64,000 nucleotides of DNA, taken from NCBI RefSeq assembly GCF_018326305.1, contig NZ_AP023417.1:1-64000 (forward strand). Direction: 5' to 3'. The DNA comes from Vescimonas fastidiosa. GTDB lineage: Bacteria > Bacillota > Clostridia > Oscillospirales > Oscillospiraceae. Under the pieces are notes generated by a model. It made no database searches. It worked only from the letters and a program-made list of their open reading frames with translations, and had not been told where the DNA came from. How positions within the stretch are numbered: the first letter of the stretch is position 1; every line of letters begins with the position of its first letter. The position numbers were made by a program, and so were the translations under genes. Shown here in pieces: positions 27,345 through 51,046 of this stretch.

Positions 27345-27838
27345 AGGATACCCACTTATATAAGCGCTGCATCGAAGCAGGGATCGGGCAATTCCGGCAA
27401 AATGGTGCAGCCTGATGAAATCCAATAAAGCCAAATGCTAAAACGGTGTAAAAATGGTGTAACAGCCAAGACACCAAACGCTGAAACCCCTTGAAAATCA
27501 GGGAAAATCGAAGGAGAATGAGTACAAATGAAATTAGGAATCGATATAAATTAACCTTTTTGTGCATCTTTATGTATCTCTATAAATCTCCACAAATCGT
27601 TGTAATATAAGGGCTTCCACATTTTTCAGAAGAATGTAAATCGATGTAAAACGCCATATCTCAATGTCAAAATGGTGCGGATATGGTGCGAAGAAAAACG
27701 AGAAAACCCAACGCGGCAGCAAAATAAGGATGTGCATGATTGGAAAGGTTCCTTTCTTAATTGTGCGCATCTTTTTTGGCAAACATAATCTCTTCGCTTT
27801 TCGGAATTAAGTTGTTTACAAAAAGCGAGGTAATAAAT
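27345..27838. other. Putative ICE left end (attL region) with short direct repeats
   Basis: No protein gene is supported here (27092-27838 as a whole lacks one). The DNA turns A/T-rich and carries repeated ATGGTGY words: AAAATGGTGCAG (about 27400), ACGGTGTAAAAATGGTGTAA (about 27443) and AAATGGTGCGGATATGGTGC (about 27669). AATCGTTGTAAT and AATCGATGTAAA also recur. Such clustered repeats resemble arm-type sites of tyrosine recombinases. The exact core site cannot be set without the right end. Confidence 0.4.
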
Positions 27839-28975
27839 ATGCGCGAATATACACTTGAGATCAAACAGATCGTAGATTATCCACGATGCCGGATCTACCG
27901 GCAGTTCGTACAAGCCTTGATAGCAGACCGGAGCATTCGCGTGAGCGGAGGCTCCGGTCTTTTTTATTTTGTCGTGCTATGCTCCTATGCCAACTTCCGC
28001 ACCTCATACAAGCGCATTGATGGCATTAGTTACACCATCTACCCCGGCGAATGGATTATGTCCGTGGAGGAATTGTCCCGGTATTTCCGAACACGCTTCC
28101 GCCGCCAGACCTTAACCGCATTGGAGGGGCTGCAAAAGAAAGGACTTATCAGCTTTCTTGTTCTCGGACATGGTAAGCTGGTCAAATTCAAGATTCGCGG
28201 GTGGCGGCGTCACAACACGATTCTCGACTACAATGCGCCCTGTCAGAAGGATACCGGCTTTTTCTTCTTCCCTGTATCCACTGCCACAGAGCTGGTCAGT
28301 GCCGGTCACTGCTCGGAGATGGACGCCGTATTGGATCTATGGCTGAACACGGTCTATAACGATCCGCAAGTCCTCGGTTCAGACGTCGGGCCGGTGGTCT
28401 ATCTCCGCAACGGTACAGGCTGCCCGCTGGTCAGCTACGCGGAACTGGCATCCCGCTGGGGCGTCTCTAAGGCAACTGCCGGCCGATACCTCAAGCGCAT
28501 GGCTGAACGGGGCTATCTGCAACTGGCAGCATTCCCCGGCACACATGGCACCACGATCTATCTACAGAACTATCTCTCCACCATGTTCCAAATTTCTGAC
28601 ATCGTGGTGGATAAGGAAGAGATCGCCATGAGCCTTGGCATCAAGCTGGAGCTTCAGGAGGAAACCGCCCTGACCACGACGGTAACAAGCGGTTCAAATG
28701 AGACCGGTAGCGTTTCAGAAATGAACCGCCATCGAATCGAGCGGAAGATGCGGGAGATCCTTGTGGCACAAGGGCTGCCGTGTGCGTCATGCCCTAAATC
28801 CAAGTATATGTTATTACCATTATCCGACGACTGCGAGGTTACAATAGAAGGGGGGCCTCCGCTGCGCCGGTGGCTTCAACTGGTGGTCACCTGCGGTGAT
28901 GCTCAGGAAGTCTATCACTTTGAACTCAGATTGCACCCGACAGGGATGCGCGGCGATAAGGAGGTCGAACGATGA
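27839..28975 (+). CDS. ICE winged-helix DNA-binding protein
   Basis: 378 aa from ATG 27839 (GCGAGG upstream). Two winged-helix-like segments are visible: EWIMSVEELSRYFRTRFRRQTLTALEGLQKKGLISF (about 83-118) and YAELASRWGVSKATAGRYLKRMAERGYLQL (about 204-233). The rest is not recognised. As first gene of the ICE it may be a replication initiator-like protein or master regulator. A strong terminator hairpin lies inside codons 30-42, in the ADRSIRVSGGSGLFYF segment. The stop overlaps the next gene by 4 nt (ATGA). Confidence 0.75.
   Translation: MREYTLEIKQIVDYPRCRIYRQFVQALIADRSIRVSGGSGLFYFVVLCSYANFRTSYKRIDGISYTIYPGEWIMSVEELSRYFRTRFRRQTLTALEGLQKKGLISFLVLGHGKLVKFKIRGWRRHNTILDYNAPCQKDTGFFFFPVSTATELVSAGHCSEMDAVLDLWLNTVYNDPQVLGSDVGPVVYLRNGTGCPLVSYAELASRWGVSKATAGRYLKRMAERGYLQLAAFPGTHGTTIYLQNYLSTMFQISDIVVDKEEIAMSLGIKLELQEETALTTTVTSGSNETGSVSEMNRHRIERKMREILVAQGLPCASCPKSKYMLLPLSDDCEVTIEGGPPLRRWLQLVVTCGDAQEVYHFELRLHPTGMRGDKEVER
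27926..27970 (+). terminator. Terminator-like hairpin inside the 5' coding region of the first ICE gene
   Basis: GACCGGAGC (27926-27934) pairs perfectly with GCTCCGGTC (27951-27959), followed at once by TTTTTTATTTT. This is a textbook intrinsic terminator about 88 bp past the start codon, so full-length mRNA would need readthrough or antitermination. Confidence 0.75.
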
Positions 28976-29508
28976 AAAAGACTGCACAAGAACCCAAAGT
29001 GACCGAGAACCCCTTGTACCATGACACATGGATGCTGCTACGCAAGTACCGGGACGTGGTGTGGAGCCTGGAGCTGTCCGTGCAGCAGGTACGTCGGCAG
29101 TTCCAGATCGAGTATGGCAGCAGCATAGAGGAATTTCTGGAATCCCTCTATGTGGCCGGCATCACCTTCGATGGCTCGGCGATTGAGGATCATGCCCGCT
29201 GCATCGAGCGCAGCTACAAGATGCTGAAGCTGCTGGATACCTCCGTGGAGCTGCTGCGGACAAAGCACAAGTACGGTGAGAGCTATTACTGGCTCCTGTA
29301 CTACACCTACCTGTCACCGCAGCAGTTGGCGAACACGCAGGAGATCATCGACAAGCTGGAGCCGCACATTCGGGACATCAGCTACCGCACCTACTTCCGC
29401 AAGCGTCAGATGGCGATTGATGCCCTGAGTTCGGTGCTGTGGGGGTATTCGTCGAAGGAGAGTCTGGCACTGTTGGAGAAGTTTGTGCCGGAGGAAAACA
29501 AACCATGA
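28972..29508 (+). CDS. Hypothetical ICE protein, all-helical
   Basis: 178 aa, translationally coupled to the preceding gene (ATGA overlap). It is predicted almost entirely helical and rich in Tyr and Arg (YHDTWMLLRKYRDVVWSLEL; SYYWLLYYTYLSPQQL), with a C-terminal segment (YRTYFRKRQMAIDALSSVLWGYSS) resembling the last helices of ArpU/RinA-like phage regulators. That resemblance is weak, so no function is assigned. It probably works with the winged-helix protein. Confidence 0.65.
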   Translation: MKKTAQEPKVTENPLYHDTWMLLRKYRDVVWSLELSVQQVRRQFQIEYGSSIEEFLESLYVAGITFDGSAIEDHARCIERSYKMLKLLDTSVELLRTKHKYGESYYWLLYYTYLSPQQLANTQEIIDKLEPHIRDISYRTYFRKRQMAIDALSSVLWGYSSKESLALLEKFVPEENKP

Positions 29509-29527
29509 AGAAATAATCATACAATCA

Positions 29528-29648
29528 AAACCTCCGGCTAAGCCGGAGGTTTGATCAGGCCCTATAAGGGCCTATTACTGGCAAGCCCCTCAAGGGGCAC
29601 TGAATTTTTCTTCGCTTGCATTCTCTGCCCTACCGCCCGTAAACGGGC
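29528..29648. repeat. Cluster of four short perfect palindromes
   Basis: AAACCTCCGGC/GCCGGAGGTTT (29528-29552), AGGCCCT/AGGGCCT (29557-29573), GCCCCT/AGGGGC (29585-29598) and GCCCGT/ACGGGC (29635-29648) lie within 121 bp. Arms and spacers differ, so this is not a CRISPR array. They fit the 3' hairpins of an IS200/IS605-like unit. Confidence 0.8.
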
Positions 29649-29696
29649 TATCACCATCACCGGAAGCCTTTTGCTTGTCGGTGTATTGCTTGTCAT
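29562..29696 (-). pseudogene. Remnant of an IS200-like transposase gene (44 codons)
   Basis: ATG at 29696 follows GAGGAGAC at 9-nt spacing, as in intact tnpA genes. The frame reads MTSNTPTSKRLPVMVIARLR… to …SVPLEGLASNRPL and stops at TAG. No HUH motif or catalytic tyrosine remains, consistent with an internal deletion that joined the first codons to the 3' tail. Confidence 0.45.
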
Positions 29697-29845
29697 GAAT
29701 TAGTCTCCTCGTTTTTGTAAGTGTTGGTCGGCAAACTTTTCACTTACTCTAACTTGGAGACTTTTTCTTTTTTGCTCTCTTCCACGCCATAGGCTTTTGT
29801 ATCCCCCCGGCAGAGCCGGGGGTTCTCTTTGGTGTCCAAATGAAA

Positions 29846-29905
29846 TAGCGGAGATGTGCAAAAGCAACATCTCCGCTATCGTTCCTACAATCCGTATTGT
29901 AGGAA
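29846..29905. repeat. Two adjacent stem-loops upstream of the remnant transposase
   Basis: AGCGGAGATGT/ACATCTCCGCT with loop GCAAAAGCA, and CCTACAAT/ATTGTAGG. Further right, TCTGAG/CTCAGA (about 29920-29940) and ATATGGG/CCCATAT (about 29969-29987) continue the series, so a minus-strand transcript from 30049 would pass through several consecutive hairpins. Confidence 0.6.
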
Positions 29906-30055
29906 TCTTTCGTCTTCTGAGGAGTCAACTCAGAGAGTAGATCCTGGCTCAAGAAGAACGTAAAACAATATGGGCCGTTCCCATATGGTTTAACAAAAGT
30001 ATATGCGTATAAGCACGCAAGCATACCATCACCACAAAAAATCTTTGTTCTACAC

Positions 30056-30084
30056 ATTATACATAACAAGCACATGCTTGTCAA
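30056..30084 (-). promoter_or_regulatory. Perfect sigma-70 promoter firing into the hairpin-rich gap
   Basis: On the minus strand TTGACA (30084-30079) and TATAAT (30061-30056) are 17 nt apart, with start expected near 30049. It lies about 30 bp past the stop of the cyclase-like gene and points away from it, into 29.5-30.0 kb where no intact gene exists. It may drive a structured RNA or the lost transposase. Confidence 0.65.
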
Positions 30085-30112
30085 GCCACTATATGCTTAA
30101 GGCGAAGAAGAG

Positions 30113-31591
30113 TTATCGAATCCTAAACAGCAGATCCATTCGTTCTTTTTTCTCTGACTTGACCGATGTCTTACTGCTTGGTAAGCCATAGGCTTCAACG
30201 TAGCCATCTTCTGAAATCTTAATGCCTACTCCAAGATGAGCAAGCTTTTTTGCTGCAGCTGTACGCCCACCGCCTGTACTTCCTGAGGGAACTGCAACGA
30301 TTGAACCTGCACAATAAAACGAGCCGTCAAGAGAAACTACGGTTGCGCCATCAAGACTCAATATTTCTTTTCTCAGCGGGGCATCAAGCTCGAAAAACGA
30401 GCGAATGTTAAAGTTGTTGTCAACTAGCAGATAGCTAAGTACCTTAATTTTTTCTTGGCTCTCCGAACTTACCCCGTCAGGCAACTTTCCAGCAACACTC
30501 AAATCGAAGCGCTCTTTGATTACCTTAGATATTTCGTCATCATCTATGCCAGGGACAATGATAGATAAGCAACCTCCAACATGAGAAAACGATACATCCA
30601 GTATTGTGTTGTAAATAATCTTGATCTTTCTTTCAATATCGATTATATCAGCATTCTCGGTTGTCAAAAAGTAAGGCAGTAGCTGTGAGCGTATACGATC
30701 CCAATCAAATGATACCCATTTTGTTCCTCGCTTAGCAAAGCAGATGGCACGTTTTTTAACTAAGAGTATTTCGCCATTAGTCAGAACAATAACGCCAATT
30801 GCATTGCCGGAACAATGTTGTGCGATATCCGAAAACTGATAGGGCACAAACATTTCGTTTTCTGGCTGGTGATTTTTAATTGGGGTATTCCGTGTTATAA
30901 ACGAAAGCACTCTACCTTTTTGATCCAGTCTTATTCCAGAAAATACACCGTCTGTAAAAACGGCACTGCAGTCATTCTGCAGAAAACTCAAGTAACTGGC
31001 AGCGTCTTTATTTGCTTTCGCGTCAAAGTCTACTACAAAACCAAACGGAACACTGCTCCCTTCATATGTTTTTGAGGCCCACTCCTCCATGCGGCACAAC
31101 ATGGCGTGTAGTGTGAATGCACCATCGTGTGGAGCCAGCCAAGAACACATACCAAGCTCAAATGCCAATTGGAGGGTCTTGTTCTTATATGATGTGTATC
31201 TGCGCTTGCCGTTCCCGTAGTCACGTTGCTTTCGTATTTTACCATCGAAGCAATTATATTCAGTGACTTTTAAGAGTTCCCTTAGAATGACATTGAGACG
31301 CTTAACTATAGATTTGGGGGAATATGTTTTTACCTTATAACAAAATGGTGTTGTATGGCCGTTTCGGGAAATGCACGGGAAAAAATACAAGCAGGGACTG
31401 TTCTTTCCGTTTTCCACATAAGAAACTAAAGCAGTATTCATTGAAGGCTTTTTAACAAGCTTCAGGTTACCCCGTGAATCACAAAGTGGAAGAATAAAAG
31501 TGTTAATAACGGAATGAAATTCTACTTGGGCTTTATTTAGAAGATCGTCTTGTGTGTTTTCAATATCCGAGCCATGTTTAGCTTGCGCCAT
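30113..31591 (-). CDS. Putative diadenylate-cyclase-like (DAC/DisA_N) enzyme with large sensor region
   Basis: 492 aa, on the strand opposite to both flanking ICE operons and visibly more A/T-rich. The C-terminal ~95 residues look like a DAC catalytic core: LDGATVVSLDG (DGA at 414-416) and, 27 residues later, GGGRTAAAKKLA (440-451), in the place of the DisA RHRAA motif, then VGIKISEDGYVEAYG. DAC domains condense two ATP to c-di-AMP. The RHR triplet is altered here, so activity or product may differ. Residues 1-400 match none of the housekeeping forms (no CdaA membrane helices, no DisA HhH) but contain a beta-rich segment (VPFGFVVDFDAKANKDAASY) as in DAC-linked sensor domains. It has its own promoter (31627-31655) and AGGAGAG, so it is probably cargo, perhaps anti-phage or stress signalling. 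No effector is adjacent. Confidence 0.6.
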   Translation of the reverse strand: MAQAKHGSDIENTQDDLLNKAQVEFHSVINTFILPLCDSRGNLKLVKKPSMNTALVSYVENGKNSPCLYFFPCISRNGHTTPFCYKVKTYSPKSIVKRLNVILRELLKVTEYNCFDGKIRKQRDYGNGKRRYTSYKNKTLQLAFELGMCSWLAPHDGAFTLHAMLCRMEEWASKTYEGSSVPFGFVVDFDAKANKDAASYLSFLQNDCSAVFTDGVFSGIRLDQKGRVLSFITRNTPIKNHQPENEMFVPYQFSDIAQHCSGNAIGVIVLTNGEILLVKKRAICFAKRGTKWVSFDWDRIRSQLLPYFLTTENADIIDIERKIKIIYNTILDVSFSHVGGCLSIIVPGIDDDEISKVIKERFDLSVAGKLPDGVSSESQEKIKVLSYLLVDNNFNIRSFFELDAPLRKEILSLDGATVVSLDGSFYCAGSIVAVPSGSTGGGRTAAAKKLAHLGVGIKISEDGYVEAYGLPSSKTSVKSEKKERMDLLFRIR

Positions 31592-31626
31592 ATCTTTCTC
31601 TCCTAATGCGTAAATTGAATATATTT

Positions 31627-31655
31627 ATTATAACAATAATTGAGCAAATTGTCCA
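31627..31655 (-). promoter_or_regulatory. Promoter of the cyclase-like gene
   Basis: Minus strand TGGACA (31655-31650), 17-nt spacer, TATAAT (31632-31627), then a 36-nt leader and AGGAGAG before the ATG at 31591. Confidence 0.75.
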
Positions 31656-31730
31656 CATTGTCTGCAAATAATTGTAAAGAACCTTTCTTGTACTTATTTG
31701 CAATTCTTACTGGCACCCTCTTGCCACAAC

Positions 31731-31798
31731 ATTGGCACGGTTTTGCGATTTCGGCGTAAATCCAAGTGTGCTATACTGTGTATGCTCAAAACTATGCC
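31731..31798 (+). promoter_or_regulatory. ICE promoter copy 1 (transfer operon)
   Basis: An extended -10 TGCTATACT (TATACT at 31772-31777) is preceded by TTTTGCGATTTCG and CGTAAATC, which contain a GATTT/AAATC inverted repeat. No good -35 is present. The same ~47 bp occurs at 43928-43974 before the pilus operon with only a few changes, implying a shared activator or alternative sigma factor. Confidence 0.75.
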
Positions 31799-31812
31799 AA
31801 GGCGATACGAGT

Positions 31813-31846
31813 AACACCATCCTACGGGGTGGTGTTATTTTGTTTC
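31813..31846 (+). terminator. Attenuator-like hairpin just after ICE promoter copy 1
   Basis: AACACCATCC (31813-31822) pairs with GGGTGGTGTT (31827-31836; one G-U pair), then ATTTTGTTT. It lies about 30 nt past the expected transcription start and 80 nt before the first transfer gene. Confidence 0.7.
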
Positions 31847-31926
31847 CGGGTATTTGGGCAGTCCAAGAGGGGCGACTTTTAGAGAGTAGCCCCTCCACAT
31901 CTTTTCTATCACAGGAGGTATCACGA

Positions 31927-32298
31927 GTGAAAAAACATGACCTGACCAAGACACATCTCCACAGGGCAAGCCCCGGCATGGCACTATATGCGGCCTTCGC
32001 GGGCGTGACCATGGCCGCAATGCTTTGCCAGCCTGTCTTTGCCGCCACCGTCTGGGAGAAGGCCAATGAGATCATGAAGGATGTCTATAACCAGATTCTT
32101 CTTATCTCCACCATTGCCGCCATTGTCACCGCGTCGGTGGCACTGCTGATGATGAACTTCTCCCGCAATGGCCGCACTGTGGACGAGAGCCGCGCATGGC
32201 TCAAGCGTATCATCATCACATGGGCGATCCTTAACGGTTTGGGCTTCATCATGTCCTATGTGACGCCCTTCTTCGCAGATGGCAGATGGAACGGATAA
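31927..32298 (+). CDS. VirB2/TrbC-like membrane protein (putative pilin-like subunit)
   Basis: 123 aa from GTG 31927, supported by CAGGAGG upstream. A signal-like hydrophobic stretch (GMALYAAFAGVTMAAMLCQPVFAA) is followed by two membrane helices (LLISTIAAIVTASVALLMM and IITWAILNGLGFIMSYV), the layout of type IV secretion VirB2/TrbC proteins. It opens the transfer operon, directly before the VirB6-like gene. The assignment is by topology and position. Confidence 0.65.
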   Translation: MKKHDLTKTHLHRASPGMALYAAFAGVTMAAMLCQPVFAATVWEKANEIMKDVYNQILLISTIAAIVTASVALLMMNFSRNGRTVDESRAWLKRIIITWAILNGLGFIMSYVTPFFADGRWNG

Positions 32299-32332
32299 CG
32301 CCAAACTGCCCGGCTGAGAAAGGAGAAGTGCT

Positions 32333-33043
32333 ATGGGCATATTAGATGGCATTGTAGAATGGATCGCGGAACAGGTCATGTACGGTCTTGACCTTATCAA
32401 CACCTCTGTGCTGGGGGCTCTGGGCTGCGACATGACCACCTTCCTGCGCTACTTCCCTGCCGCGGAGACGATGTACAACATCTTCGTGGCACTGGCTATC
32501 GGCATGATCCTGCTGAACCTGATCTGGCAGCTATTCAAGAACTACGGCCTTATAGCAGGCGTAGAGGCAGAAGACCCGGTAAAACTGACGATCCGCTCCG
32601 TGCTGTTTATCCTGCTGGCCTATTTCGCAGATGAAATCGTGGAGCTGATACTGAAAATCGGCGGGACACCCTACGCGTGGATCATGTCGTCTGAGCTGCC
32701 CACACTGAACTTTGCCGACTTCAATTCGGTCATACTTACCATCCTTGGGGTCTGTGCCAACGGCGCGGTGGCTCTAATCGCCCTGATCCTCGTACTCATA
32801 TTGGCGTGGAACTATATCAAGCTGCTATTTGAGGCGGCGGAGCGTTATGTGCTCCTGGGCGTTCTGGTATTCACGGCACCGGTGGCTTTTGCTACGGGCG
32901 CGGCGCAGAGCACCTCCAACATCTTCAAGGCGTGGTGCCGGATGTTCGGCGGCCAGATGTTTCTGCTGCTGATGAACGCATGGTGCCTTCGCCTGTTCAT
33001 CACCATGGTGGGAACCTTCCTGGCAAACCCCTTATCCCTATAG
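32333..33043 (+). CDS. VirB6/TrbL-like conjugation channel protein
   Basis: 236 aa, GAAAGGAG upstream. It has about six membrane helices, with the VirB6-like pattern of a short N-terminal amphipathic stretch (MGILDGIVEWIAEQVMYGLD) and a conserved-looking loop (AERYVLLGVLVFTAPVAFATGAAQSTSNIFKAWCRMFGGQMFLLLMN). It should form part of the inner-membrane channel of the mating apparatus. Confidence 0.85.
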   Translation: MGILDGIVEWIAEQVMYGLDLINTSVLGALGCDMTTFLRYFPAAETMYNIFVALAIGMILLNLIWQLFKNYGLIAGVEAEDPVKLTIRSVLFILLAYFADEIVELILKIGGTPYAWIMSSELPTLNFADFNSVILTILGVCANGAVALIALILVLILAWNYIKLLFEAAERYVLLGVLVFTAPVAFATGAAQSTSNIFKAWCRMFGGQMFLLLMNAWCLRLFITMVGTFLANPLSL

Positions 33044-33052
33044 GAGACGATC

Positions 33053-33982
33053 ATGAATCAAAAAACGAAATACATCACAGGGATCGTGTTGTCCGTACTG
33101 GTTATATGTGCGCTCACAATCCCGGCCTTTGCTCTGACGGAATCAGATGTGCAGTCTCAGGTCTCAGCCTCCGGTAAAGAAGGCGTGGCCGGAAACCTGT
33201 TTATCTGGTTTCTGTGCGCAGTGGCATTTTTGAAGATCTCACAGAAAATCGACAGCTTCATGCAGGGCCTTGGCATCAATGTGGGTCATACAGGCGGCTC
33301 TATGCTGGCAGAAGCGATGCTGGCCGCGCGGAGCACTGCTGCCGCCCGTGGCGTCGCTGGACGCGGTCGAGGCGGTAATGCAGGGCGAGCCGGAAGCACC
33401 GGTGGCAATGGCGGTGACAGCAACACCTTCCTGCAAGGTGGTCTGGCCGGTGTTGCCAATCGCAGCTTCTATAACGGCGCATACCGAAACGCCACCGGCA
33501 CAGGCAGCGGCGGCGTTGGCGGCATGGCGTTCCGTGCCTCTATGACCAAGGGCGGCGATATTGCCAATAACGTTATCAGCCGGATTGCCACCGGCAGCGC
33601 GGGATCAGGGGATGTCATGTCCGGCAATATGGCAGCGGACGCTCTCATGTCCTATATGGGCTATACGGCTCTTGGTGAAGGCGCGGCGGATATTCCGACC
33701 TTCTCCAATGTGGAGATCGGCGGTGGGTATATCACCGGCACGGAGACCTCTGAGGAAGAACCTGACGGTCGTGCCTTTGCCATGTACAGCACTGAACAGT
33801 ATATGGAGCCAAAACGGGAATACACTATCGTCACCACCGTGGATGGCGCAAAGTGGTATAGGCAGTACGCACAGGACATAGTGGAGAAAAAGCCTTATCA
33901 GAATCCGGATGGCGGCATTTCCTATCGTGAGAGCCTGATTCGGCGTCTGCCTGACCCGCCTCGCAGAAAGGACAAGACCTGA
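33053..33982 (+). CDS. Glycine-rich membrane protein of the transfer operon
   Basis: 309 aa, 9 bp after the VirB6-like gene. A signal peptide (residues 1-27, ending PAFAL) and one further helix (GNLFIWFLCAVAFLKI) precede a long Gly/Ala/Arg-rich tail (ARGVAGRGRGGNAGRAGSTG and onward), like the extended soluble tail of TrbL proteins. It may be the second half of a split TrbL. No enzymatic motif is seen. Confidence 0.7.
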   Translation: MNQKTKYITGIVLSVLVICALTIPAFALTESDVQSQVSASGKEGVAGNLFIWFLCAVAFLKISQKIDSFMQGLGINVGHTGGSMLAEAMLAARSTAAARGVAGRGRGGNAGRAGSTGGNGGDSNTFLQGGLAGVANRSFYNGAYRNATGTGSGGVGGMAFRASMTKGGDIANNVISRIATGSAGSGDVMSGNMAADALMSYMGYTALGEGAADIPTFSNVEIGGGYITGTETSEEEPDGRAFAMYSTEQYMEPKREYTIVTTVDGAKWYRQYAQDIVEKKPYQNPDGGISYRESLIRRLPDPPRRKDKT

Positions 33983-33983
33983 T

Positions 33984-35375
33984 ATGACCCAGCAAGAACG
34001 CAACGGTCTGAACGAAGCCGCTGAGATCAGCGCACACGCTGCCGGTGCCGTGCGCGGCGCCATCAAGACAGGAAAAATGGTAAGCGGCGCGGCAAAAGGT
34101 GCTGCTGCCGCAGGCCCTTACGGTGCGGCGGCAGCGGCACTCTGGACACATCGCAAGGCGGTTGCTGCCATCATTGCCGGGTTGCTGGTGCTTCCCGTCC
34201 TGTTCATCATGCTGCTGCCCTCCCTGATCTTCGGCGGGTTGACCAAGGCAGGGGTTGAAGGAAGTCCAGACACACCGATTCTTAACGACAACGCCGTCAT
34301 TGTGGAGAACATCAATCAGATCTCGCAGGCAATCAGCGACTTGCTGGAGGAAGGGCAGGAGGATGTTCGCGCCCGGATTGACGCGGATTTTACCGCTTCC
34401 GGCACTGACCAGAAGGAGATCATCAATCCATACGAAAGTTCCCCGACCTACAACGCCAACCGCTTCATTGCCATGTACTGTGCCGCCAAAAATCAGGACT
34501 ACACATCTATCTCCCTCAAGGATATGGAGGACGTAATCCGTAAGGCCAAGGACGCTCTCTATACCTTCGCGAGCACGGAGGAGTCTCGCACGACTACGGT
34601 AACGGAAACGAATACGGATCCCAAAACCGGTAAGGTCACAGTGACGGAAACGGAGGTCACGGAGATATGGAAGATCTATACCATTGTCTACAACGGAGAA
34701 GCCTATTTTGAGGATAAGATATTCGCTCTGTCGGATGAACAAAAGGGATTGGCGGAAAACTACGCCCAGAACCTGAGCGTATTCCTGGGCGATGGTATGA
34801 TGCAGGGCTTGCTGCCTGCCGAGTTCACCGGCCTTGTATCTCTGGGCGACATTCGTTTCTCGGATGGCGCGGCGCAGGTGGTCTACTATAATCAGTTGGA
34901 CAAGCGGTACGCGCACAAGCCCTACGGCACCGACGACATCGGCACCTACGGCTGCGGGCCTACCTGTATGGCAATGGTGGTATCTTCTCTGACCAACGAG
35001 ACGGTCGATCCCGTTGAGATGGCACGTTGGGCCTATGAAAACGGTTACTGGTGCAGTAGAAGCGGTTCCTACCATTCGCTGATCCCCGGTGCTGCCAAAG
35101 CGTGGGGGCTTCCGGTACAGGGCTGCGGGAAAACAGAAGGGCAGCGCATTGCGGATGCGCTCTCTCAAGGCAAGCTGGTGGTTGCAATCATGCTGAAAGG
35201 TCATTTCACCAGCTCAGGACACTTCATCGTGCTGCGCGGTGTGGAGAACGGAAAGATACTGGTGGCCGACCCTGCCAACTATACCCGAAGCCAACAGGCA
35301 TGGGATCTGGCTATCATCCTGAATGAAGCCAGCGGCCGTGCCGGTGCCGGTGGGCCTTTCTGGATCATAGGGTAG
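33984..35375 (+). CDS. Membrane-anchored C39-family peptidase of the transfer operon
   Basis: 463 aa. The N-terminal 60 residues are Ala-rich and are followed by one membrane helix (AAIIAGLLVLPVLFIMLLPSLIF). A helical stalk runs to about residue 300. The C-terminal C39-like papain fold has Cys in YGCGPTCMAMVV, His in SSGHFIVLRGV and Asp in ILVADPANY. In conjugation systems this place is usually held by a cell-wall hydrolase; a C39 domain suggests cleavage of a peptide or wall cross-link to let the channel pass. The substrate is unknown. Confidence 0.82.
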   Translation: MTQQERNGLNEAAEISAHAAGAVRGAIKTGKMVSGAAKGAAAAGPYGAAAAALWTHRKAVAAIIAGLLVLPVLFIMLLPSLIFGGLTKAGVEGSPDTPILNDNAVIVENINQISQAISDLLEEGQEDVRARIDADFTASGTDQKEIINPYESSPTYNANRFIAMYCAAKNQDYTSISLKDMEDVIRKAKDALYTFASTEESRTTTVTETNTDPKTGKVTVTETEVTEIWKIYTIVYNGEAYFEDKIFALSDEQKGLAENYAQNLSVFLGDGMMQGLLPAEFTGLVSLGDIRFSDGAAQVVYYNQLDKRYAHKPYGTDDIGTYGCGPTCMAMVVSSLTNETVDPVEMARWAYENGYWCSRSGSYHSLIPGAAKAWGLPVQGCGKTEGQRIADALSQGKLVVAIMLKGHFTSSGHFIVLRGVENGKILVADPANYTRSQQAWDLAIILNEASGRAGAGGPFWIIG

Positions 35376-35390
35376 GAAGGAGAACTAAAT

Positions 35391-38219
35391 GTGAGTAAAC
35401 CAAATGAATATGAAACCTATATCATCCCGCCCAATTTTATTGAGGGCGGGACTTTTTTCGGCGGACTGCTGAAGCTCCGCAATACAGCCGAGGCACTGGT
35501 TATCGTGTTGGCTATCGGCATACCAGTGTTTTCGGTGTCCGCACTGACACTGACTGCCAAGATCATCATTCTGTGCCTGACCGCACTGCCTCTTGGCATC
35601 GTCGCACTGGTTGGCATCAACGGCGAAAGCCTCTCGTCATTTATCTTTCTTGTTCTGAAATATCTCTGCAACCGCCGTGTTATTACACGCAATGAAGAGG
35701 AACAGGACAAGCGGGAAAAACGCAGGAAGCGAAAAGCTAAGAGCGGTGACGACGCGCCCAAGTACATCAATCCAGTGGCGGAATACCTGCCTGTGGAGAA
35801 GATCGAAAACGGCATCATCTACACACGGGATCACCGTTACCTGAAGATTGTCGAAGTTATACCTATCAACTTCCTGCTGCGCAGTGCCAGAGAGCAGCGA
35901 AACATCATCTATTCGTTTATTTCGTTTCTGAAGATCAGCCCGGTCAAAATGCAGATCAAGGTCATTGCCAAGCGTGCCGACCTGAACCGGCACAGAGAGA
36001 TCGTGCAGCGGGAGATGGCGCGAGAAACCGATGAAAACTGTCGCCTGCTGCAGCGGGACTACCTGACGCTCATTGACCGGATCGGTGCACGGGAAGCCAC
36101 CTCGCGCCGGTTCTTCATGGTATTTGAATATGAGGCATGGGCAGGCCGGAAACGGGATAACGAGGAAGCGGAGGCCATCGCCTCCCTGCAAACGGCAGCC
36201 CGCACCGCAGTCAATTATCTCAAGCAATGCGGCAATGAGGTGTTGATCCCGGAAAACGACGATGAGTTTATGATCGATACCCTCTACCATTTGCTGTGCC
36301 GCAACACCACTACATCGCTGCCGGATCGAGTTCGCCGGATCGTTGCCCAGTATCAGGAGAAAGGACTGGAATCTGAGATCGACGCCATTCCCTGTACAGA
36401 GTTTTTCGCCCCTGACAGCATCGACTTCACCAACGGGCGGCATATCTGTATTGACGGACTCTACTATGCCTATCTGCTGGTGCCCTCCACTGGCTATAAG
36501 GCGCAGGTGCCGGCCGGCTGGCTGTCCCTTATCGTTAACGCCGGGGATGGCATTGATCTGGATATGTTCATCAGCCGCCAGCCGAAAGCCCGCATGGTGC
36601 AGCGGCTGGGACAGCAGCTTCGTATCAATCGCAGTAAGATCAAGGACGCCAGCGATACAAACACAGACTTTGATGATCTGGATGGGGCCATTCGCAGCGG
36701 CTACTTCCTGAAGGAAGGGCTGGGCAACAACGAGGACTTTTATTACCTGAATCTGCTGATCGCAGTGACAGCTCCCACAGTGGATGAACTGGAATGGAAG
36801 GTCAATGAACTGAAAAAGCTGCTCGTGTCCCGTGATATGGACGTGTGCAGCTGCGCCTTTCATGAGGAGCAGGCGTTTCTATCGTCGCTGCCGCTGGTCA
36901 GCATGGAAAAGCACCTCTTTGAACGCTCCAAGCGCAATGCGCTGACCACCGGCGTGGCAAGCTGCTACCCCTTTACGTCCTACGAGCTGAGCGACGAAAA
37001 CGGCATCCTGTTCGGCCTGAACAAGTACAACAACTCTCCGGTCATCATCGACATCTTTGATTCCAAGGTTTATAAAAACGCCAATATTGCCGTATGCGGC
37101 ACCAGCGGCGCAGGAAAGACCTTCCTGATCCTGCTGATGGCACTCCGTATGCGGCGTAAGGGCATACAGGTTTTCATGCTGGCACCCTTGAAAGGTCATG
37201 AGTTCCACCGTGCCTGCGTCAATACAGGCGGCGAGTTTATCAGTATCTCCCCCGCCTCCAAAAGTTGCATCAACGTGCTGGAGATACGCAAGATAGACAA
37301 GTCCGTGGAGGAAACGCTGGATGGCCCCGGTATCGAACGCTCTGAGCTGGCAGCAAAAATTCAGCGGCTTCATATCTTCTTTGCCCTGCTGATCCCCGAT
37401 ATGTCCTATGAGGAAAAACAGCTTTTGGACGATGCCCTGATTCGTACCTACGCACGGAAAGGTATCACCCATGATAACACTTCTCTCAGTGATCCGAATA
37501 ACCCCAACGTTTACCGCCAGATGCCTGTGCTGGGCGACCTCTACGACGTTCTGCGGGAGGAGAGCGATACCAAACGCCTTTCCAACATCATCAACCGCTT
37601 TGTACACGGCTCGGCCAGCACCTTCAACCAGCAGACCAATGTGAATCTGGATAACAAGTTCACGGTGCTGGACATCTCGGAACTCAGCGGCGATCTGCTG
37701 CCTATCGGCATGTTCGTAGCGCTGGATTTCGTGTGGGATAAAGCCAAAGCCAACCGCACGGAGGAAAAGGCCATCTTCATCGACGAATGCTGGCAGCTCA
37801 TTGGCGGCGGCTCCGGCACCTTCGGCGTCGGCAACCGTCTTGCGGCCGAGATGGTGCTGGAGATCTTCAAGACCATCCGCGCCTATTCCGGCAGCGGCAT
37901 TTGCGCGACGCAGGATCTGAACGACTTCTTCTCCCTGGACAACGGCAAGTACGGCAAGGGGATTATCAACAACTGCCGCACGAAAGTCATCTTGAATCTG
38001 GAGGACGAGGAAGCCCAGCGCGTTCAGCAGGTATTGCATCTCTCCGAAGCGGAGGTCATGGAGATCACCCACTTTGAGCGGGGCAATGGCCTGATCAGCA
38101 GCAATAACAACAATATCACAGTGGAAATCAAAGCCAGCCCACTGGAACGCGACCTTATTACCACAGACCGCCGCGAGTTGCTTGACCTGCTGCGCCGCAT
38201 GAATCGACCGGAAGCCTAA
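35391..38219 (+). CDS. VirB4-type conjugation ATPase with N-terminal PrgI/VirB3-like segment
   Basis: 942 aa from GTG 35391 (AAGGAG upstream). Residues 1-100 hold a PrgI/VirB3-like membrane part with two helices (ALVIVLAIGIPVFSVSALTL; IIILCLTALPLGIVALVGI), fused to the VirB4 body. Walker A is GTSGAGKT (about 570-577), Walker B is AIFIDECWQL (about 792-801) and a late arginine region is FKTIRAYSGSGICATQDL. It energises substrate export and pilus assembly at the inner membrane. A terminator-like hairpin lies within codons 12-23. Confidence 0.95.
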   Translation: MSKPNEYETYIIPPNFIEGGTFFGGLLKLRNTAEALVIVLAIGIPVFSVSALTLTAKIIILCLTALPLGIVALVGINGESLSSFIFLVLKYLCNRRVITRNEEEQDKREKRRKRKAKSGDDAPKYINPVAEYLPVEKIENGIIYTRDHRYLKIVEVIPINFLLRSAREQRNIIYSFISFLKISPVKMQIKVIAKRADLNRHREIVQREMARETDENCRLLQRDYLTLIDRIGAREATSRRFFMVFEYEAWAGRKRDNEEAEAIASLQTAARTAVNYLKQCGNEVLIPENDDEFMIDTLYHLLCRNTTTSLPDRVRRIVAQYQEKGLESEIDAIPCTEFFAPDSIDFTNGRHICIDGLYYAYLLVPSTGYKAQVPAGWLSLIVNAGDGIDLDMFISRQPKARMVQRLGQQLRINRSKIKDASDTNTDFDDLDGAIRSGYFLKEGLGNNEDFYYLNLLIAVTAPTVDELEWKVNELKKLLVSRDMDVCSCAFHEEQAFLSSLPLVSMEKHLFERSKRNALTTGVASCYPFTSYELSDENGILFGLNKYNNSPVIIDIFDSKVYKNANIAVCGTSGAGKTFLILLMALRMRRKGIQVFMLAPLKGHEFHRACVNTGGEFISISPASKSCINVLEIRKIDKSVEETLDGPGIERSELAAKIQRLHIFFALLIPDMSYEEKQLLDDALIRTYARKGITHDNTSLSDPNNPNVYRQMPVLGDLYDVLREESDTKRLSNIINRFVHGSASTFNQQTNVNLDNKFTVLDISELSGDLLPIGMFVALDFVWDKAKANRTEEKAIFIDECWQLIGGGSGTFGVGNRLAAEMVLEIFKTIRAYSGSGICATQDLNDFFSLDNGKYGKGIINNCRTKVILNLEDEEAQRVQQVLHLSEAEVMEITHFERGNGLISSNNNNITVEIKASPLERDLITTDRRELLDLLRRMNRPEA
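35426..35458 (+). terminator. Terminator-like hairpin inside the first codons of virB4
   Basis: CCCGCCC (35426-35432) pairs with GGGCGGG (35444-35450), followed by ACTTTTTTCG. It is 35 bp into the reading frame, the same position-type as at 27926. Confidence 0.7.
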
Positions 38220-49744: not shown

Positions 49745-51046
49745 TCAGACAAGCGTGTCATCCAGCAGGAAGTCAATGACGCCAATATTGAGAATGCCGC
49801 CCTCATCATACCAACGCTTACGGATGTCATGACGGACAATGATCTTCGGGAAGGAATCACCGGTCAGCGCGAAAGGCTTATTCTCGGTGATCGCCTTTTC
49901 CGCTGTTCCCAATGCGTAGGCAGACTGGATATAGGTCTTCTTGCCGCCGGAGGTTGCAATGAAGTCGATTTCCCGCGCGACCGGCACGACCTTTCCTTTG
50001 GTATTTTTCTCGTTGCCGTAGACAATGCCGATGTCAACGGCGCATTCACGGATCATCAACTCATTGAAAATGATGTTCTCCATGATGTGCGTCATTTCCT
50101 GCTGGCGGAAGCCGATACGGGCATTTCTCAGTCCAATGTCCTCACAGTAGTATTTGTTGGGATAGTCAAAATAGCTCTTGCCCTTCACATCCCAGCGCTT
50201 GCATTCGGTAAAGAGGAAGGAATCCGATAAGTGATCCATATAGGCTTTCACGGTGTTCAAGGCAACGACATTTTCACCGCTACGCTTCTGCACTGTGTTG
50301 ATGGCGGCAGCAACCTTCGTTGGGTTGGTCAGAGAGCCAATAGACGAACACAGCAGATCAAGAATCGCGGACAGCACATCCTCACGCTTGATCTTCTTCC
50401 GCTCTACAATGTCCTTCAGATAGACCTCAGAAAACAGCGATTTCAGATAAGCCATTTTCGCGGCATCCGTGGGACGGGACAGGATCAGCGGCATACCGCC
50501 GTAGAAAGCAAAATCGTCAAAAGCGTCCTGCTTATCGCCGCCAACAGCCGAGTAGTATTCGGCAAAGGAAAGCGGATGCACACGGATCTCATCGCTGCGC
50601 CCCCGGAACTCGGTCAGTATATCAGAGGACAGCATTTTGGAGTTGCTTCCGGTCACATAAATGTCTAAGTTGGGCAAGGACTTCAAATCGTTGAGCGCGT
50701 CGTAGAAGGTAATCTTCTTTCCGTCCGGATTATAGGGATTCGGAACTTCGTCGGACATCTGAATCTCGTCTACAAAGAGATAATATTGGTCTGTACTGTG
50801 TTCTACGATCTCCCGGACATGAGCCGCAAGCTCCAACGGATTGCGATAGCGAATATCACGGGTCAAGTCCAACTCAAAGGACAGAATATGATCTTCGGCA
50901 ACACCCTCACTGAGAAGGTAGCTCTTGAACAGATTGCGAAGCAGATAGGACTTGCCGCATCTGCGGATGCCGGTAATCACCTTCACCTGACCATCCCACA
51001 TAAAGGAGATGATTTTCTTCAAATAGCGATCTCGTTTTATTTCCAT
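49745..51046 (-). CDS. AAA ATPase with DUF4143 domain
   Basis: 433 aa, opposite strand to the surrounding ICE operon. The Walker A is GIRRCGKSY, Walker B is YLFVDEIQMS and sensor 1 lies in DIYVTGSNSKML. A C-terminal DUF4143 region (YLKSLFSEVYLKDIVERKKI onward) completes the family. Such proteins are scattered mobile genes of unknown role, possibly defence- or toxin-related. A GGAGG precedes the ATG at 51046. It seems to have inserted at the end of the pilus module. Confidence 0.85.
   Translation of the reverse strand: MEIKRDRYLKKIISFMWDGQVKVITGIRRCGKSYLLRNLFKSYLLSEGVAEDHILSFELDLTRDIRYRNPLELAAHVREIVEHSTDQYYLFVDEIQMSDEVPNPYNPDGKKITFYDALNDLKSLPNLDIYVTGSNSKMLSSDILTEFRGRSDEIRVHPLSFAEYYSAVGGDKQDAFDDFAFYGGMPLILSRPTDAAKMAYLKSLFSEVYLKDIVERKKIKREDVLSAILDLLCSSIGSLTNPTKVAAAINTVQKRSGENVVALNTVKAYMDHLSDSFLFTECKRWDVKGKSYFDYPNKYYCEDIGLRNARIGFRQQEMTHIMENIIFNELMIRECAVDIGIVYGNEKNTKGKVVPVAREIDFIATSGGKKTYIQSAYALGTAEKAITENKPFALTGDSFPKIIVRHDIRKRWYDEGGILNIGVIDFLLDDTLV

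Follow-up and report, generated by a model that had tools for sequence, protein, structure and literature searches.

A mobile insert carries a DAC-like gene and a predicted RNA gene

The window, which is the whole stretch of DNA analysed here (64,000 nucleotides), contains an ICE interrupted by a 2.24-kb insert (29493..31730). The insert is made up of IS200-like ends, a predicted RNA gene, and a gene for a protein related to diadenylate cyclases (DACs). It is missing from four sibling ICEs, namely the second ICE of the same genome and three others that were fetched. In all four, the empty site is evident as 40-79 bp separating the bases that match 29463-29493 and 31726-31731. The gene is thus ICE cargo, as originally predicted, and the insert that carries it is mobile. 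On the left, the ICE backbone (27761..29508, + strand) encodes two proteins, one containing a winged-helix stretch and one of 178 aa that lacks a Pfam match. On the right (31732..38219, + strand), it carries conjugation-type genes, named from sequence, including a TraE-like ATPase (35391-38219, + strand). One 13-mer was all that a search for repeats at the ICE ends returned. The G+C content is 41.7% for the insert and 41.4% for the DAC-like gene, compared with 53.7% in the left ICE stretch (27761-29492) and 54.8% in the right (31731-38219). The A/T-richness of the gene had been correctly read at the outset, as had its orientation on the - strand, opposite to the ICE genes that flank it on both sides.

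Two ends of an IS200/IS605-like element, without a transposase, lie beside the RNA gene (29523..29839). These ends match copies of about 750 bp in G008 and G053; those copies contain a Y1-type transposase frame, recognised from sequence. Similar ends are present in multiple copies in related genomes, where full copies are again about 750 bp long.

The DAC-like protein has a nearly invariant motif set

The gene (30113-31591, - strand) is an open reading frame of 492 codons with an ATG start. It is more than a chance reading frame, since 285 homologues were found at E ≤ 1e-3 among 7999 candidates scored. The 120 homologues listed are all without a Pfam domain, and only one was named by its source ('hypothetical protein'). 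The window protein itself has no usable match in Pfam, PADLOC, NCBIfam or PHROGs, with weak chance-level hits only, and none among PDB sequences (best E 0.18). Pfam and PADLOC gave no ToxN- or Abi_2-type match, and a reverse transcriptase domain is absent by Pfam scan. A divergent family member with 33.7% identity is carried by MT837587.1, a record from human faeces submitted as an unverified phage; the gene sits at the very end of the record, so any accompanying RNA would lie beyond it. Scans of viral contigs with two protein alignments confirmed no relative.

The gene had been credited with its own promoter. A probable promoter found by consensus scan (31627..31655, - strand; TGGACA-17-TATAAT with TG before the -10) scores 11/12 and ends 36 nt 5' of the ATG, which favours that claim, but the region holds 5 promoter-like sites against 4.4 expected, so that the count shows no excess over chance.

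Alignments were used to judge the domain limits of the 492-aa protein. The N-terminal part of about 150 aa is the most different from a sister clade described below. The middle part contains TYEG (175-178) and FTDG (212-215). The C-terminal DAC-like region (residues ~325-470) contains GGC (339-341), DGA (414-416), GGR (441-443) and SED (460-462). The DGA lies where it had been placed; GGGRTAAAKK begins at residue 440, 24 residues after DGA rather than the 27 first given, and SEDG begins at residue 460. Across 98 aligned members of the window clade, G339, C341, G415, A416, G441, G442, R443, A445, A446, S460 and D462 are invariant, and G340 and D414 are each kept in 97. The residue after R443 is threonine in 81 of the 98 and the next is alanine in all of them. 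When 85 sister-clade sequences are added, the DGA aspartate is present in 182/183 and the GGR arginine in 183/183, which points to a nucleotide-handling site that is under selection rather than decayed.

Remote homology to diadenylate cyclases runs through a sister clade

DACs share a canonical set of motifs consisting of DGA, a G-x-R element and SE-type residues, and bind the triphosphate through an RHR triplet. The superfamily is mostly known for housekeeping synthesis of c-di-AMP. Direct comparison of the window protein with this superfamily gave little: the Pfam HMM check proposed for it returned no DAC match, and only one of the 98 window-clade members matches PF02457 (E 0.062). A genome scan found a sister clade (L008-L013) in Proteobacteria and others, 27-31% identical over the matched part (about 25-31% for the clade overall), together with a 46-residue match at 61% identity at a contig end (L014). 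An alignment of eight proteins, comprising L008-L013 and two plasmid copies (L015 and L016), served as the sister-clade query and retrieved 362 proteins at E ≤ 0.01 from 8000 candidates scored. Among the matches listed, UniRef/JGI labels some 'DAC domain-containing' or 'DisA with diadenylate cyclase activity', and one carries a precomputed PF02457 assignment. PF02457 matches 47 of the 85 sister-clade proteins scanned at E ≤ 0.1. The best (E 3.4e-6) may sit near the gathering cut-off of 27 bits; another, P0225, scores 24.8 bits over model positions 41-114 of 119.

The two clades align with one another at an hhalign probability of 100 (E 5e-54, residues 20-473 of the window protein). Against CdaA-type DACs, the window clade reaches a probability of 0.4, no better than 20 column shuffles (0.0-0.6), and the sister clade reaches 4.9 with a motif-correct alignment, the shuffled controls applying to the window clade only. 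An HMM of 41 DACs lists 70 of the 85 sister-clade proteins (best 10.7 bits) and 21 of the 98 window-clade proteins (best 10.5 bits), the window protein not among them, with reversed controls at 2.7 bits or less. The GGRHAAA motif of L013 aligns with GTRHRAA of this HMM with no gap inside the motif, such that the first arginine is kept and the third is alanine. Alanine replaces the third arginine in 98/98 window-clade and 81/85 sister-clade sequences, and the altered triphosphate-binding triplet that was predicted is therefore both real and conserved.

Because the sister clade weakly matches PF02457 and the two clades match each other, we assign the C-terminal region by transitivity as a remote member of the DAC superfamily. 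The resemblance to DACs proposed originally thus holds by way of the sister clade and fails for the window protein taken alone. DGA is present in the window clade, the RHR triplet is not intact and the PF02457 gathering cut-off is not reached, and for the last two reasons we use the label DAC-like.

A DAC scoring over the cut-off is encoded in the window's genome and in the other five Firmicutes genomes that carry the gene, and is absent from five of the seven non-Firmicutes genomes with a family protein. In 321 genomes of the class of L008, which we interpret as Gammaproteobacteria, a DAC search gave one sub-threshold match, flanked by genes that resemble mnmE and gidA in sequence. The Massilia protein, used as a query against 369 genomes, recovered its own source alone, and blastn probes that included the DNA of three sister-clade genes had no match in complete E. 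coli genomes.

A predicted structured RNA gene lies downstream

Scanning the insert revealed, beyond the stop codon of the DAC-like gene and in its orientation, a sigma-70 consensus promoter (30056..30084, - strand) that matches TTGACA-17-TATAAT at 12/12 positions and whose -35 element starts 29 nt past the stop. It would drive a predicted structured non-coding RNA gene (29838..30050, - strand, ends inferred) with a folding z of -7.3. The conserved core of this RNA (29881..29991, - strand) consists of a hairpin P1, a closing stem P2, a small hairpin P2b, and a hairpin P3, and is followed by a 3' hairpin with perfect 13-bp arms (29845..29879, - strand) that probably forms the RNA end. It had been claimed that the gene has no adjacent effector, which is correct for protein genes and overlooks this dedicated RNA gene.

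TTGACA-17-TATAAT with zero to two mismatches precedes the RNA in all six Firmicutes copies. In L003, L006 and L007 the gene has the same layout behind it, promoter first and structured RNA second; in L005 this layout comes after an inverted-repeat element. That element (L005:3586-3862, about 280 bp, read from sequence) lies between the gene and the RNA promoter and leaves the RNA intact. Five of the six copies were folded, including that of the window, and the other four have z values of -8.4 (L003), -8.4 (L005), -7.0 (L006) and -5.1 (L007). The L007 copy of the gene is without its 5' half and the RNA is present.

The structure of the RNA is conserved across copies. In the six-row model alignment, 95.3% of pairing cells can pair, compared with 86.4% in shuffles and 36-43% when the rows are slid by 1-3 columns. 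Changes on both sides of a pair occur in 13/29 pairs, compared with 4.8 in shuffles (0/500 shuffles reach 13), in an alignment that was fitted to the structure and holds only six related sequences. P3 has most of this covariation (7/9 pairs). The number of further pair types is not unusual, being matched by 115/500 shuffles. RNAalifold, run on five longer sequences that were not fitted to the structure, also predicts P1, P3 and the terminal hairpin; P2 is not predicted and the covariation term is slightly unfavourable (+1.32). Rfam 15 gave nothing above gathering and five weak matches (best E 0.14), all outside the core, and no tandem motif was seen in the RNA.

Two other origins for the RNA were considered and rejected. 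It is probably not a 3' UTR of the gene, as it has its own promoter in all six copies. Nor is it likely to be part of the IS200-like element, which ends at 29839, outside the core; the core matches neither of the two full element copies. An IS200-transposase-like frame lies 3' of the RNA in L105, in one of the five other 3' flanks (252-1976 bases), as a counter-observation.

The RNA accompanies the gene in six Firmicutes genomes

A covariance model (R1) was built from four copies of the RNA, with L006 and the genome of L004 held out. The window core, a member of the training set, scores 108.6 bits. Over 29 sources, R1 recovered the four training copies and the held-out L006 (53 bits, E 4.5e-7); it found no RNA in the L004 locus, L008-L016 or the sibling ICEs, and gave one noise match (E 0.54). 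In the held-out genome of L004, the RNA is found at 116.8 bits on a different contig from the gene. Both contig ends carry insertion-sequence genes, which differ from one another, and share a 26-base stretch, so gene and RNA were probably separated by an inserted IS.

Among the 13 genomes with a family protein, the RNA is present in 6/6 Firmicutes and in 0/7 others, which have the sister-clade protein. A survey of 99 relatives found the protein in the window's genome only and the RNA likewise only there, with no RNA in the 98 that lack the gene. Of 250 Lachnospiraceae scanned for the RNA, the one positive was an already known gene carrier, the only one of the 250 for which the presence of the protein had been established. 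Copies as diverged as that of L006 could be missed in both surveys, because their stricter filters lose weak matches. The Fisher value for the linkage (7e-10) is descriptive only, since carriage of the protein decided which genomes counted as positives, and the model was itself derived from four of these six.

The sister clade, including two copies beside CBASS genes, has no such RNA, which indicates that part of the family does without it. An equivalent RNA was sought there and rejected. With mononucleotide shuffles, the 3' z of -4.6 in L008 reflects a terminator-like hairpin, six other members have 3' z values of -2.1 or weaker, and 5' z values are at most -3.4 in eight. On the Firmicutes side, L005 has a z of -5.0 upstream of the gene. 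RNA-motif scans of viral contigs flagged five and two stretches; R1 found no RNA in the five and scored at most 11 bits in the two. Blastn with the L007 copy of the RNA hit no phage or plasmid.

Gene neighbourhoods suggest a link to phage defence

Defence-type genes lie within about 4 kb at 5 of the 14 relatives' loci (L003-L016), a count with no background rate behind it, with some loci cut by contig ends and the other nine read from ORF lists or annotation (Pfam or PADLOC being applied to some genes of L003, L004 and L013 only). L006 has SngA/SngB, which we take to be Shango, and a helicase nearby. L010 has CapV and a CD-NTase, L015 a type II CBASS set, and L011 a type IIG/DrmMI-like methyltransferase. 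Of the nine loci that belong to the sister clade (L008-L016), two thus have CBASS genes nearby. In L009, a gene for a SLATT_5 membrane effector (L009:8746-9501) sits directly 5' of the sister-clade gene in the same orientation, and the two are possibly a cyclase-effector pair. In L013, a 1206-aa protein without a Pfam match (L013:1956-5576) is encoded directly 3' of the sister-clade gene and has one weak PADLOC match (DUF626_VIII, E 3.5e-4). These neighbourhoods make phage defence a plausible role.

No defence gene is immediately adjacent in the window. Six proteins of its contig were scanned with PADLOC, and these six include no cyclase and no CBASS effector; the genes to the right of 31732 were read from sequence and look conjugation-type. 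Further along, the contig holds two ATPase-like genes with PADLOC matches to phage-defence candidates, one at 49745-51046 of the window (PDC-S01, E 5e-101) and one at contig positions 64378-65778 (L061:378-1778; PDC-S27, E 3e-52).

A proposed RNA-partnered nucleotide switch

The gene is mobile, its nucleotide-handling motifs are nearly invariant, and each of the six Firmicutes genomes found to carry it also has a dedicated RNA with a consensus promoter. Together these features suggest an RNA-governed signalling or toxin module. We lean, by a modest degree, towards a mobile two-part module that pairs a DAC-superfamily protein having an altered triphosphate-binding triplet with its own strongly promoted structured RNA. 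Such a module would probably act against phages as an RNA-partnered cyclase or nucleotide switch. The RNA would bind the DAC-like protein, and we guess that it does so at the N-terminal part because this differs most from the RNA-less sister clade. In healthy cells the bound RNA would hold the protein off or tune it. Infection or another stress would then remove, compete for or remodel the RNA, and the C-terminal DAC-like domain would be switched to make or bind a nucleotide signal. The targets of this signal could be c-di-AMP receptors of the host or an unlinked effector, and the outcome an anti-phage, probably abortive, response. One point against this reading is that the host encodes a DAC of its own, which would make a plain source of c-di-AMP redundant. 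Among restraint, activation and scaffolding as roles for the RNA, restraint is favoured given that the RNA has its own promoter and a separate transcription unit.

A type III-like toxin-antitoxin or abortive infection pair would have the same parts, with the protein as a toxin that needs no cyclic nucleotide and the RNA as its neutralising antitoxin. A consensus promoter and a hairpin-ended RNA adjoining a mobile, sporadic gene would fit such a pair, as would the parallel with AbiF, whose RNA (RCd22) binds and neutralises the protein according to the available text of PMC12373285. The same text describes the ToxIN and AbiF RNAs as repeat arrays 5' of the gene, whereas the RNA here is 3' and has no tandem motif. 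Conservation of DGA...GGR...SED points instead to a site that handles nucleotides, and sister-clade genes are kept without such an RNA. We regard this explanation as unlikely, though one to be taken seriously.

We also think it improbable that the protein is a pseudo-DAC, a nucleotide sensor without catalysis that would serve as a brake or reporter on binding NTPs or a signal of the CBASS type. Loss of the third RHR arginine in nearly all sequences and the CBASS genes near two sister-clade loci are consistent with it; the near-universal DGA aspartate argues the other way. So does the finding, in the available portion of PMC13092281, that two predicted catalytic residues of the DAC in the DS-2 system are needed for defence, if that DAC is assumed to belong to the same family. 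The protein could also be a DAC variant acting alone and making c-di-AMP or a related dinucleotide, the RNA then being an unrelated neighbour or a 3' mRNA regulator. This would explain the remote homology through the sister clade but is quite improbable, as gene and RNA occur together in differing surroundings in 6/6 Firmicutes genomes, and the RNA has its own promoter and was not found in 98 relatives without the gene.

If the two-part module works as proposed, it may represent a kind of mobile immune module not described before, a cyclase-RNA ribonucleoprotein. Here a structured RNA would directly control, or be required for, its cognate DAC-like enzyme, whose remodelled triphosphate site would make a new nucleotide signal. 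This broader claim is tentative, and we place it a little on the doubtful side. To our knowledge, no nucleotide cyclase or DAC-like protein has been reported to have its own dedicated non-coding RNA, and none was found in the titles and abstract openings of the open-licence papers retrieved. Gating of the protein by the RNA would bear on the long-standing question of how signal-producing immune enzymes stay off and what they sense, and would be testable in a module of about 1.8 kb. The results also tie the DAC superfamily to mobile DNA near defence genes, and add an RNA family with a ready covariance model (R1).

Comparison with known systems

Retrons and DRT systems combine a protein with a dedicated structured RNA. 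The present module has the same plan, and its protein differs in having no reverse transcriptase domain. Compared with established DACs (PF02457; CdaA, DisA and CdaS), the family has the same order of DGA, G-x-R element and SE-type residues. It differs in having R-T-A in place of RHR, a long upstream part without a Pfam match, and an RNA partner; the window clade falls below detection with DAC models, whereas the sister clade scores against PF02457.

DS-2, from a DefensePredictor screen of E. coli strains, combines a phospholipase, a cGAS and a DAC. As the available text of PMC13092281 describes it, defence is lost when two predicted catalytic residues of the DAC are mutated, and half of its 30 DAC homologues (15) adjoin CBASS; the CBASS-DAC association is credited there to Galperin 2023. 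DAC-like genes near a phospholipase and a cGAS-like enzyme in L010 and L015 resemble this arrangement; for the window copy, no CBASS gene was found among the six contig proteins scanned. The DS-2 DAC may be only distantly related to the present family, since the three sister-clade genes match nothing in complete E. coli genomes.

AbiF with RCd22 and type III toxin-antitoxin systems, as far as PMC12373285 describes them in the available text, likewise pair a mobile gene with a structured RNA. The protein here is unrelated to theirs, and its RNA is downstream and adopts a predicted single complex fold rather than a repeat array. AbiF-RCd22 is the nearest working analogue of the module, though not a relative.
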